Source of the DNA: a bacterium
GTDB taxonomy: Bacteria; UBA3054
Assembly: GCA_017538635.1 (NCBI GenBank)
Contig: JAFYIM010000008.1
Location: forward strand, 1 to 5,638
DNA: 5,638 nucleotides
Direction of reading: 5' to 3'
In this document: in pieces, positions 1,161 to 4,500 of the stretch
Numbering within the stretch: the first letter of the stretch is position 1
Layout of the letters: each line of letters starts with the position of its first letter
Notes under the pieces: generated by a model
Databases searched by the model: none
Seen by the model: only the letters and a program-made list of their open reading frames with translations
Told to the model about the DNA's origin: nothing
Position numbers and translations under genes: made by a program

Positions 1161-2219
1161 TTATTCGGCGACAAACACTTTCTTATGATCGCCGCGGTCG
1201 ACCACGATCTCGTAGCCCGCGCAGGCTACCCGGGCGGAAAGGCATTTGATGCATTCTGCTGATTCGCTGCCGGTACAGATCTTTCCGTTGTAAAGCGCAT
1301 ACTTATCGCGAACGCTTACTGGCGATAGATTTGGCATTACAACATTTGCGCCGTGCCTCAAGCCTTTTTCACGGCCTTCGGGATCGATCGTGCCAAGCGC
1401 GGTCGTAGCCGGCAACAGCACATCCGGCACCAGAAGACGAATGATGGAAAGAAGCTTCAGCGTCAGATCAAGGCTGCCCTGCGGTTCGTCCTTAAAGATC
1501 GTGTCTTTATGAGGAATAAAGGGACCGATGCCGCACATGTCGGGTTTGAATTCCGAGATAAAGCGAAGGTCCGCGATCAAATTCTGCGTGGTTTGGTAGG
1601 GAGAGCCGACCATCATGCCGCAGCCGACCTGATAACCGATTTTGCGCAGCGTTTTGAGGCAGTTCATGCGGTTTTCCCAAGAGAGATTGGCGGGGTGCAG
1701 TTTGGCGTAATGAAGGGGCGAGGCGGTCTCATGGCGTAGGAGATAGCGGTCGGCGCCGGCTTCAAAGAAGGCCCGGTAACTTGCTTCGCTTTTCTCTCCG
1801 ATGGAGAGCGTCACGGCGCAATCCGGATGCATAGCCTTTATCCCGCGGATCAAAGAAATGATCTTATCGTCAGTATAAAAGGGATCCTCGCCGCCCTGCA
1901 GGACGAAAGTGCGAAAACCCAGTTCATATCCCTCGCGCACGCAATCCAATATTTCTTCATCGCTAAGGCGGTAGCGATCGGCTTTGGCATTCTTGCAGTT
2001 GATGCCGCAATAATAGCAGCTGTTCTTGCAATAGTTCGTGAATTCGATGAGGCCTCTGATATATACGGCTTTGCCGTAGATCTTTTCACGGATTTCACGC
2101 GCACAGGCGGCAAGATACGCGAGAGCCTCTTCATCTTCCGTTGTAAGAAGAGCCTCAAGCTCAGCATCCGAGACGCTGCGCCCTGCCTTCAGTTCGTCTA
2201 TAATCGCCTTAATATCCAT
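1161..2219 (-). CDS. hydE: [FeFe] hydrogenase H-cluster radical SAM maturase HydE
   Basis: HydE is a radical SAM enzyme that, with HydF and HydG, builds the diiron subcluster of [FeFe] hydrogenase in the cytoplasm. With the ATG at 2219 the protein has 352 residues (Thermotoga maritima HydE, about 348). The radical SAM CX3CX2C cysteines are C64, C68 and C71 in 'CKNSCYYC'. Other HydE-like stretches are 'VLQGGEDP' (about 106-113), 'DRYLLRHETASP', 'GIGPFIPHKDT' and 'PATTALGTIDP'. Three C-terminal cysteines, C315, C323 and C326, have the same 8 and 3 spacing as the auxiliary-cluster cysteines of T. maritima HydE. The start at 2219 aligns with the Thermotoga N-terminus; longer forms from 2228 or 2279 would add residues encoded by promoter-like or repeat DNA. 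There is no Shine-Dalgarno, and an extended -10 lies directly upstream. No hydF, hydG or hydrogenase gene is in the window. BioB and PylB are relatives, but the overall match is to HydE. Confidence 0.95.
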   Translation of the reverse strand: MDIKAIIDELKAGRSVSDAELEALLTTEDEEALAYLAACAREIREKIYGKAVYIRGLIEFTNYCKNSCYYCGINCKNAKADRYRLSDEEILDCVREGYELGFRTFVLQGGEDPFYTDDKIISLIRGIKAMHPDCAVTLSIGEKSEASYRAFFEAGADRYLLRHETASPLHYAKLHPANLSWENRMNCLKTLRKIGYQVGCGMMVGSPYQTTQNLIADLRFISEFKPDMCGIGPFIPHKDTIFKDEPQGSLDLTLKLLSIIRLLVPDVLLPATTALGTIDPEGREKGLRHGANVVMPNLSPVSVRDKYALYNGKICTGSESAECIKCLSARVACAGYEIVVDRGDHKKVFVAE

Positions 2220-2225
2220 CAATTT

Positions 2226-2241
2226 CATTGTAGCAGAAAAC
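2226..2241 (-). promoter_or_regulatory. Candidate extended -10 promoter of hydE (leaderless or near-leaderless)
   Basis: On the minus strand GTTTTCTGCTACAATG runs from 2241 to 2226. It holds an extended -10 (TGC followed by TACAAT, 2232-2227). With normal spacing transcription would begin near 2220, one base before the preferred hydE ATG at 2219. No -35 was recognised. The same 16-mer, with two differences, precedes cdaA at 3703-3718, in the same relation to its start codon. The overlap with the alternative ATG at 2228 argues against that start. Confidence 0.45.
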
Positions 2242-2253
2242 ACTCTTTGCTGC

Positions 2254-2274
2254 GCGAAAAAAAGAACGCACCCC
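2254..2274. repeat. Third copy of the palindrome arm (direct repeat)
   Basis: On the plus strand GCG-A7-GAAC-GCA-CCCC resembles the left arm of the neighbouring palindrome (2282-2304). It matches the reverse complement of the right arm (2361-2382) at about 19 of 21 positions, including the seven-A run. It has no inverted partner of its own nearby, so it looks like half of a duplicated hairpin. On the minus strand it lies between the palindrome and hydE and reads as GGGG, a short mixed stretch, then T7. Confidence 0.7.
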
Positions 2275-2281
2275 ACCATCG

Positions 2282-2401: not shown

Positions 2402-3625
2402 TTACTCGAATTCGATGGTCGACGGCGGTTTCGGCGTAATGTCGTACAGCACTCTGTTCACGCCCGGCACTTCCGCCACCACTCTCACCGCCACCTTTCT
2501 AAGCAGCTCGTAGGGGATCTGCGCGACTTCCGCACTCATGGCGTCGGAGGACAGTATCGCTCTCAGGCAGATGGCTTCCGCGAACGTGCGGCGGCCGTCT
2601 TTCACACCCGTACTCTTGAAGCCCGGGCAGACCGCGAAGTACTGCCAGATCTGCTTGTCCAGGCCGGCGTTCTTAATTTCTTCGCGCCAGATGGCGTCCG
2701 CCTCGCGGACGGCCGCCAGCTTTTCTCTCGTTATTGCGCCGACGACTCGGACGCCGAGGCCGGGGCCCGGGAAGGGCTGGCGCCAGACCTGCTCGTCGGG
2801 GAGGCCGAGGGCGGTGCCGACAGATCTCACTTCGTCCTTGAAGAGCCATTTGATGGGCTCCAGGAGCTGGAAGTCAACATCCTCGGGCAGGCCGCCCACG
2901 TTGTGGTGGGATTTCACCATGCCTTTTTTACTGAAGCTTTCGATGATGTCGGGGTAGATGGTGCCCTGAAGGAGGAAGTCCATTTTGCCGAGTTTGGCGG
3001 ACTCTTCCTCGAAGACGCGGATGAATTCCTCGCCGATGATCTTGCGTTTCTTTTCGGGATCGTCAACGCCGGCCAGCTTCGTCAGGAAACGCTCTTTGGC
3101 GTCGATCATGATGAGGTTCATCTTGAAGGTCTGCTTGAAGATCTTCTCGATGGATTCCGGCTCGTTCTTGCGCATGAGGCCGTGGTCAACGAAGACGCAG
3201 GTAAGTTGGTCGCCGATGGCGCGGTGGACGAGCGCGGCGCACACCGAGCTGTCAACGCCGCCGGAAAGGGCGCACAAAACTTTTTTGTCGCCGACGGTCT
3301 TTCTGATCTCTTCCACGGCGTTCTCAATGAAGGATTCGACCGTCCAGTCCTGCTTGAAGCCGCAGGATTTGAAGAAGGCGAGAACTTCTTCGTTGGTTTT
3401 GAGGTTGCCTTTTTCAAGGACGGGGACGCCGAAGGGCTTGAGGACGGACAGATCGCATTCGCTTTCGTCGTCGCCGATGGCCACGATAGCTTTGGGTTTG
3501 ATGGTGGCGTCGATCTTTTCTATGGGCAAAACTTCGCAGTAAACGTTCGCGGATCTGGCTTGTTTGGCGACTTTCTGATTGTTGTGGGCGCCGAAATCGG
3601 CGATGAGAAGAAGTTCTTTGTTCAT
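2402..3625 (-). CDS. guaA: GMP synthase with internally deleted glutamine amidotransferase domain
   Basis: GMP synthase aminates XMP to GMP using ATP, in the cytoplasm. From the ATG at 3625 the protein has 407 residues, against roughly 510-525 for usual bacterial GuaA. The synthetase half is complete: P-loop SGGVDSS (121-127), '[14 protein letters not shown]', '[11 protein letters not shown]' (220-230), '[10 protein letters not shown]' (238-247), 'RQPFPGPGL' (282-290) and the C-terminus '[14 protein letters not shown]'. The N-terminal glutaminase domain survives only as its first 65 or so residues ('LLIADFG', 'VYCEVLPIE', 'GVPVL'). It then jumps to the sequence that normally follows that domain ('[21 protein letters not shown]'). 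The nucleophilic cysteine, where GVCYGMQ would be expected, and the catalytic His-Glu are absent. Inference: it uses free ammonia or a separate glutaminase. ATG 3625 is preferred to TTG 3685 because 'ELLLIADFG' begins just after it, although no Shine-Dalgarno precedes it. Confidence 0.93.
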
Positions 3626-3723: not shown

Positions 3724-4500
3724 ATGAATCATTTGCTATCTATGGCGCAGCTGCGCCGCTTCATAGCTATCCTGCATCCCGGGGTGTGGGATATCGTCGA
3801 GATATTGGTAATGGCCACGGTCTTTTACCTTATCATCTCGTTCGCTTCCAGGACGCGCACGGTCTCACTTCTGAAAGGTCTGTGCGTTCTGGCTTTGGTC
3901 TATATTTTGGCGAACGTTTTGCCCTTAATGACGATCAGGACGCTTATTTCGGATCTTTTGCCCTCCATCGTTCTGTGCATCGTTATTCTCTTTGCCCCGG
4001 AAATGCGCCGCGGTCTTACGGAGCTTGGCAAGAACACGACCTTTAAAAGGACTAAGCAGACGAACGCCCCTGTCAGGGAGATCTACAACGCGGTCGTCGC
4101 CCTTTCCGAGCAGAAATGCGGCGCCCTTATAGCCATCGAGCGCCACGTCGGCTTGCACGGGTACGTGGCTCCTTCAGGAGTTGTCATAGACGCCGACGTT
4201 TCGACGCCTTTGCTTTTGAACATCTTCTACCCGAAATCCCCGCTGCACGACGGCGCGGTATTGATAATCGGCCGCAAGATCCATGCGGCGGCCTGCCATG
4301 TGCCCCTTTCCACGAAGCAGCTGGCCCAGCTTATGGGCACCAGGCACTGCGCGGGATTGGGCTTGAGCGAGGAGACTGACGCTCTGGTCATTTGCGTTTC
4401 CGAGGAGACCGGGCATATTTCGCTTTTCGAGGACGGGCGCTGGGACAGGAACGTTCCCGCCTCCAATCTTCTGAAGCGGCTTTTGGAAGTTTACGCTTAA
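3724..4500 (+). CDS. cdaA: Membrane diadenylate cyclase, CdaA type (DisA_N/DAC domain), variant RHR motif
   Basis: CdaA enzymes make the second messenger c-di-AMP from two ATP and act at the cytoplasmic membrane. The 258-residue protein is near the usual 270-280. Three hydrophobic segments stand at about 22-41, 50-67 and 75-91, followed by '[13 protein letters not shown]', typical of the linker into the cyclase domain. That domain shows 'GALIAIER' (133-140), 'PLHDGAVLI' with the DGA motif at D176-A178, and '[14 protein letters not shown]'. The second catalytic motif, normally T-R-H-R, reads T206-R207-H208-C209 (codon TGC; CGC would give Arg). In many bacteria cdaA is followed by cdaR (YbbR) and glmM; here the next gene starts a polysaccharide pathway with no spacing. 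The start rests on the upstream -10-like element; ATG 3742 is an alternative. The family call is firm. Full activity is uncertain because of C209. Confidence 0.92.

Follow-up and report, generated by a model that had tools for sequence, protein, structure and literature searches.

Where does a GMP synthetase take the amino nitrogen of GMP from when the part of the protein that hydrolyzes glutamine is gone? The question is raised by a gene on the 5,638 nucleotides of bacterial DNA analyzed here (GenBank assembly GCA_017538635.1, contig JAFYIM010000008.1), to which we refer as the window. The gene, a guaA on the minus strand (ATG at position 3625, stop codon at 2402-2404 in the ORF analysis), encodes a protein that scores over the cut-offs of the model NF000848 (520.8 bits, cut-off 400) and of the synthetase model TIGR00884 (478.9 bits, cut-off 338.75). 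The answer that we favor, with a probability of about 0.7, is that the protein is an ammonia-fed XMP aminase in which the residual amidotransferase stub caps the synthetase, and that it serves the window lineage as a second copy of GuaA.

A GMP synthetase gene without glutaminase core

In the profile alignment to GMP synthetase from E. coli (1GPM) the match ends at chain residue 83 and resumes at residue 186, from which it follows that about 102 residues of the class I amidotransferase (GATase) domain are missing. The stub breaks off with GVPVL (residues 66-70, window 3416-3430), and about 8 unrelated residues lie in the alignments between this segment and the last GATase helix (Table 1). The original prediction had put the retained part at about 65 residues up to GVPVL, the loss at about 105 residues and the junction near 3397-3416, which is correct give or take a few residues. 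When the protein is aligned to 1GPM and to its full-length relatives, the GATase core is absent together with its Cys/His/Glu triad, which we take to be Cys86, His181 and Glu183 in 1GPM. The synthetase motifs SGGVDS (residues 121-126), DIIES (226-230), VKSHH (237-241), KDEVR (263-267) and KPPSTIEFE (399-407) are all present and are invariant across 33 aligned sequences, and the protein thereby exhibits SGGVDS, DxxES, (I/V)K(S/T)HH and KD(D/E)V(K/R) like a two-domain GMP synthetase. That the triad had been lost, the synthetase motifs kept and the frame left open had been predicted, and alignment, motif check and ORF analysis agree with it. In the lid motif there is a V where a literature alignment of 600 sequences has an I (PMC4673825). 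The excision therefore removed glutamine hydrolysis and left the synthetase and the face that contacts it.

Table 1. Features of the window, all coordinates referring to the 5,638 nucleotides
Feature	Position	Strand	Basis or remark
Stub-type guaA	2402..3625	-	407-aa GMP synthetase without glutaminase core; stop codon counted
GATase stub, residues 1-70, last residues GVPVL	3416..3625	-	Profile alignment to 1GPM residues 6-83
Interface helix alpha1 with re-tuned signature, residues 10-25	3551..3598	-	Invariant columns in thinned representatives
Deletion junction, residues 71-78, EKGNLKTN	3392..3415	-	Replaces about 102 residues including the Cys/His/Glu triad
Last GATase helix and linker to synthetase, residues 79-92	3350..3391	-	Alignments; model helix 78-87
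ATP-pyrophosphatase and dimerization domains, intact, residues 94-407	2405..3346	-	TIGR00884 and PF00958 over cut-offs
Catalytic helix DIIES and lid with VKSHH, residues 226-241	2903..2950	-	Motif alignment; low model confidence
HydE, [FeFe]-hydrogenase maturase	1161..2279	-	TIGR03956, 567 bits, cut-off 254.6
CdaA diadenylate cyclase, divergent	3724..4500	+	TIGR00159, 206 bits, cut-off 188.8; context only

The identical in-frame architecture is found in seven other genomes (loci L001-L006 and L013), which are 'Bacterium' MAGs from ruminants and in which the gene is 90-100% identical (95-100% in L001-L003 and L013, 90-94% in L004-L006); an eighth locus, L033, holds the 3' end of the stub gene only. 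The same deletion is found in all 65 of the top-ranked protein clusters (P0001-P0065), the best-scoring ones of one database search. Because the architecture recurs in seven genomes and 65 clusters, a one-off deletion of about 315 bases in the assembly, which the original prediction had to reckon with, is excluded and the loss is real. By a simple Nei-Gojobori count over the 28 pairs of eight orthologues, dN/dS ranges from 0.03 to 0.07 for the synthetase and from 0 to 0.49 for the stub, all these values being upper bounds since multi-step synonymous codon changes inflate the nonsynonymous count. The value of up to 0.49 between the more distant orthologues indicates that part of the stub is weakly constrained. 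With the low values of the synthetase and the wide conservation of the form, the earlier view of a selected in-frame loss rather than decay has held.

One of the clusters, P0002, follows the window protein almost without change until midway through the synthetase and then continues with a divergent C-terminus of the full-length type (approximately residues 290-407); it is either a recombinant between two GuaA paralogues or a chimeric assembly.

The neighboring genes provide context. The gene for HydE adjoins the stub gene in L001-L006, L013 and L033, its orientation in L003 and L033 being opposite to that in L001, L002, L004-L006 and L013. An operon of the two genes is unsupported because of this inversion, and HydE is probably unlinked to the stub gene in function. 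In L001-L006 and L013 the gene for CdaA is transcribed divergently from the stub gene. Positions 1-1077 of the window encode a repetitive, probably beta-rich protein which by eye has a hydrophobic stretch and an RRK end resembling a sorting signal, and for which there was no match in Pfam or NCBIfam.

Conservation and predicted fold of the retained stub

Column conservation was compared between 45 thinned stub sequences and 29 thinned full-length ones. Residues 3-34, which comprise strand 1, helix 1 and strand 2, have a mean column identity of 0.83 in both sets, whereas residues 35-68 are relaxed in the stub (0.47 versus 0.71 in the full-length sequences). A13, H14, N15, N16, Q17, A20, K21 and R24 are found in 45 of the 45 stub representatives. 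The signature of the full-length sequences, D-F-G-G-Q-Y-N-Q-L-I-A-R-R-x-R-E, has in the stub become D-x-G-A-H-N-N-Q-x-V-A-K-x-x-R; GAHNNQ is present in 64 of the 65 clusters, the exception being P0040 with GAYNNQ, which thinning had removed from the set. As stub-free forms occur in the same clade, the stub can be dispensed with. The suggestion that the stub could be structural or a docking surface is upheld in spirit, since its strand-helix-strand part is conserved as in full-length enzymes, the rest being relaxed.

An AlphaFold2 model built from 33 sequences (mean pLDDT 84.6, pTM 0.84) predicts a folded stub with strands at residues 6-10, 30-34 and 46-50 and helices at 18-25, 59-65 and 78-87. 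The only poorly predicted part is the catalytic helix with the lid (pLDDT below 50 at residues 223-230 and 233-245), and the lid is described as mobile in solved GMP synthetases (PMC4673825). With VIA-align 388 of the 407 residues of the model superpose on GMP synthetase from Acinetobacter baumannii (7sbc) at 1.9 A in the range 1-407, and 385 residues on that from E. coli (1gpm) at 2.5 A. The Plasmodium falciparum structures fit more loosely, the rotated form 4wio at 6.5 A and the unrotated forms 3uow and 4wim at 4.0 A and 4.3 A, respectively. From the superposition on 7sbc over the whole length the stub is predicted to sit at the usual place of the GATase, a placement that may be explained by the training of the predictor on solved GMP synthetases.

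In the enzyme from P. falciparum the domain interface is reported to be formed mostly by GATase helix 1 and by the synthetase helices with DxxES and KD(D/E)V(K/R), mutagenesis having probed the contact of Lys24 with Asp412/413 and that of His20 with Glu374 (PMC10526850; PMC4673825). His20 and Lys24 correspond by alignment to Q17 and K21 of the stub, and both partner motifs are intact in the window protein. The isolated ATP-pyrophosphatase (ATPPase) of P. falciparum is reported to retain ammonia-dependent activity with a 5.9-fold lower kcat (PMC4673825). More generally, the ATPPase module of the GMP synthetases studied is described as working without GATase and as using external ammonia in vitro, the wild-type enzymes preferring glutamine and using free ammonia poorly by comparison (PMC10526850). 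The conservation of helix 1, the model and this literature on other enzymes together make a capping role the most likely one for the stub.

Repeated losses and copies of GuaA

Stub forms are found outside the clade of the window protein (A) in three places, B1, B2 and C, the groups having been named after the first tree had been seen. B1 (P0098 and P0121, support 100) stands beside full-length relatives such as P0122, which has 84% identity over 80% of the query; B2 (P0067, P0069 and P0077) stands beside P0111 and P0107 (82-86%); and C (genomes G275 and G395) lies within a family having full-length members. The borders nearly coincide in all of them: the stub ends no more than a few residues away from the strand that precedes the lost cysteine, and the sequence picks up again shortly before the last helix. 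In the AU test a single clade of all 33 stub and stub-free rows had a p of 1.8e-58, by which a single origin of all the glutaminase-less forms is rejected. Also rejected were the pairs A+B1 (p 0.019), A+C (9.6e-5), B1+B2 (3.1e-13), B1+C (3.3e-11) and B2+C (7.3e-27), whereas A+B2 was not (p 0.33). The core must therefore have been lost independently three times or more, and the best tree shows four losses. Stub-free forms of about 325-350 amino acids nest beside the stub forms in clade A and its sister branch, from which we conclude that in parts of this clade the stub was lost later.

Profile A2 picks up stubs of the window type only. At E<=1e-18 it matched 3 of 398 genomes sampled from the clostridial phylum (among the three G275 and G395 with another stub type), 4 of 345 genomes of an order sample at E<=1e-15 and 7 of 44 genomes of the phylum of the window's relatives at E<=1e-15, counts that do not measure the whole class because the profile missed stub-free forms later found by length. 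Among 20 short forms, 10 did not match the C-terminal motif pattern, 2 missed that of the lid and 1 that of helix 12, some of these failures reflecting the strictness of the patterns.

In the GTDB family of G001 the stub gene is present in 7 of 8 genomes; the eighth, G017, has fragments of GuaA C-termini only, beside a full-length N-terminus, and among 7 other genomes of the same order there was no stub match. In eleven of the 13 stub genomes G001-G013 a GuaA N-terminal domain is over cut-off as well, taken to indicate a full-length GuaA (in G002 and G007 the domain is cut by the contig end), G009 and G013 being the two without a full-length match. The original prediction had held that a second intact guaA, with the stub copy unexpressed, would speak against it; the second copy, half of that case, is what was found. 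As 11 of the 13 genomes hold a full-length GuaA, the stub protein of the window lineage is probably a paralogue and not the sole GMP synthetase. The full-length GuaAs of the family (L036 and L039) are away from the stub clade in the trees, and the family's stub GuaA groups with clostridial stubs in a clade that is otherwise mostly clostridial. A duplication within the genome as origin of the window copy was considered and rejected, the two GuaAs lying in different parts of the tree. Since the full-length GuaA of the family lies elsewhere, the stub gene was probably acquired from outside and both genes were kept; the tree positions thus suggest a horizontal transfer into the window lineage.

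Other arrangements of guaA genes were seen on the way. At L014:6001-8647 a full-length guaA is directly followed by a stub-free one, so that the two forms stand in tandem. In G010 the full-length guaA (L166, G010:C51:1-7500) has a fast-evolving synthetase domain (branch 1.22) and lies by eye behind carA- and carB-like genes and before a NadE-like gene; in this organism the normal copy may be the drifting one. In G022 (L092), an order-level relative of the window's kin, there is a 406-aa distant GuaA-like frame on a very long branch.

G275 and G395 have one GuaA match each, in the stub form, and three sister species have one full-length GuaA each. The gene before guaA (by eye a phosphoribosyltransferase) is the same one in 5 of 5 loci, which indicates that the stub gene occupies the ancestral guaA locus and that the core was removed in place; two downstream genes (by eye transporters) are common to 3 of the 5 loci. 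The model guaA_Nterm (TIGR00888), which as a positive control found its target in all 14 named genomes, four of them archaeal, did not reach its cut-off in any of the stub-only genomes in which it was run, G009, G013, G275 and G395. In G275 and G395 the next best matches of the glutaminase model were a separate class I GATase of 249 to 270 residues and the stub itself.

A sample of the clostridial family of G013 comprised 60 genomes, 51 of them with a GuaA synthetase match and 22 with a short form spanning the synthetase. Ten of these 22, all uncurated assemblies, list no full-length copy, the search for a lone glutaminase among the ten having covered G013. Since 9 of the 60 genomes show no GuaA match at all, some of the missing full-length copies will be assembly gaps, though hardly all ten. 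Twenty of the 22 short loci were fetched: all have an in-frame stop upstream of the short form, and in 6 an IMP dehydrogenase of the PRK07107 type lies upstream, in 5 of them within about 120 nt. In G013 the stub gene starts 19 nt behind the only IMP dehydrogenase match, and in G011 and G012 the gene beside the IMP dehydrogenase is a full-length guaA instead. Throughout G008-G013 the only IMP dehydrogenase match is below the canonical cut-off, being of the PRK07107 type where checked (L009 and L035). Judged by the gene content of these uncurated assemblies, the short form may be the sole GMP synthetase in G275, G395, G009, G013 and some other genomes of the G013 family.

Source of the nitrogen and comparison with known systems

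The favored reaction is the formation of GMP from XMP, ATP and free ammonia, with ammonia as the sole nitrogen source, and the ammonia-fed enzyme of the original prediction is, as far as sequences can tell, the likeliest outcome. With the glutamine-hydrolyzing core excised in frame from the GATase domain, the remaining strand 1, helix 1, strand 2, later strands as far as that preceding the lost cysteine, and final helix would fold and sit on the synthetase as the GATase would. Helix 1 of the stub would touch the two active-site helices of the synthetase, and the stub would be a cap that shields and shapes the adenyl-XMP site while ammonia enters from solution. The window rumen lineage would have acquired this second GuaA horizontally and kept it beside the glutamine-dependent one, being useful where ammonia is plentiful.

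The nitrogen could instead come from glutamine if the stub docked a separate glutaminase or, in a mixed dimer, the GATase that belongs to the full-length GuaA. A full-length GuaA is at hand in 11 of the 13 stub genomes, mixed dimers are possible because GMP synthetase dimerizes through its C-terminal domain (PMC10526850), and the strong conservation of the stub signature is what one would expect of an interface. An archaeal-type glutaminase serving the enzyme in trans, the second outcome named in the original prediction, nevertheless found no backing in the four stub-only genomes, where that model stayed below cut-off and a full-length GuaA match is likewise missing. As partnerless forms exist and the modelled stub seems to fill the very place that a docking GATase would take, we regard this source as unlikely. 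The protein could also have left GMP synthesis and aminate another acceptor nucleotide or, as a regulator binding XMP or GMP, tune the full-length enzyme. The stub gene does accompany a normal GuaA in the window lineage, away from other purine genes, and there are clade-specific changes, for example the AHNN of the stub and a lid motif with V instead of I. Yet neither the catalytic nor the XMP-site motifs have changed, and relatives in the same clade are found behind IMP dehydrogenase genes without a detected full-length GuaA, which makes a new substrate less likely; with a synthetase dN/dS as low as in a housekeeping enzyme, such a new job appears quite improbable. To a decaying remnant or an assembly deletion we give next to no chance. 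Full-length GuaA in relatives would permit decay, but pseudogene and assembly deletion are ruled out by the recurrence of the same in-frame form in seven genomes and 65 clusters, by purifying selection and by the invariant signature, and the in-frame stop upstream in all 20 fetched short-form loci also speaks against them.

The ammonia-fed reading can be extended to a more daring one, which we put forward tentatively and consider rather doubtful: there may be a distinct, repeatedly evolved class of glutaminase-less bacterial GMP synthetases, pared down from the full-length enzyme via the capped stub to no stub, in which the window stub has turned into a new element with an invariant signature of its own, GAHNNQ..AK..R, that gates or senses the passage of ammonia into the adenyl-XMP site, the cell using its two GuaA isoforms to switch GMP synthesis between glutamine and ammonia.

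In the bacterial lineages discussed, GMP synthetase has lost its glutaminase several times, the borders being almost the same each time, and in some genomes there is apparently no other GuaA left. Bacterial GMP synthetases are described as two-domain, glutamine-using enzymes, separate subunits being ascribed to archaea (PMC10526850; PMC9312489), and one survey is reported to have required its sequences to align to >=80% of the canonical domains (PMC9312489), a filter that would leave out forms like the window protein. In searches of the open-access literature we found no description of bacterial GMP synthetases without glutaminase. The NCBI model NF000848, 'glutamine-hydrolyzing GMP synthase', is over cut-off for the window protein, for the stub form of L009 and for a stub-free form of 327 amino acids, and such proteins carry the glutamine-hydrolyzing name in public records. 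If the enzymes are ammonia-fed, guanine synthesis in bacteria of the rumen and in other anaerobic bacteria would have a nitrogen economy other than the annotated one, since this curated model says glutamine-hydrolyzing. The series of full-length, stub and stub-free forms is a set of natural deletion mutants for the contribution of the GATase face to the synthetase, so far studied by mutagenesis in the enzymes from P. falciparum and Methanocaldococcus jannaschii.

With two-domain GuaA (E. coli 1GPM type; NF000848) the window protein shares the synthetase and dimerization domains, the tested motifs, the first four GATase strands and the last helix; it differs by having neither the GATase core nor the Cys/His/Glu triad, for which reason the name 'glutamine-hydrolyzing' cannot hold for it. 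The ATPPase of the archaeal two-subunit enzymes (M. jannaschii 6JP9, P. horikoshii 2DPL and 3A4I) likewise has no glutaminase of its own and is 48-53% identical over the synthetase in the structure match. In contrast to it, the window protein has a GATase stub and derives from two-domain enzymes by loss, and in the four stub-only genomes no gene for a glutaminase subunit was over cut-off.

Single-domain NadE, which the window protein would resemble in its mode of action, is a related ATP-pyrophosphatase that uses free ammonia and has no glutaminase; single-domain ammonia-using forms of NAD synthetase are reported to be common, with ammonia as the physiological donor (PMC3376133). NadE acts on another substrate and its single-domain form is regarded as ancestral; the GMP synthetase of the window, by contrast, lost its glutaminase secondarily, with the stub left behind. 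Archaeal PurF' without the catalytic cysteine, the carriers of which presumably include haloarchaea, is like the window protein a purine amidotransferase without a working glutaminase. PurF' has been proposed to be ammonia-dependent (PMC3261824); there it is a point loss in another enzyme, whereas in the GMP synthetase of the window the whole core has been excised.
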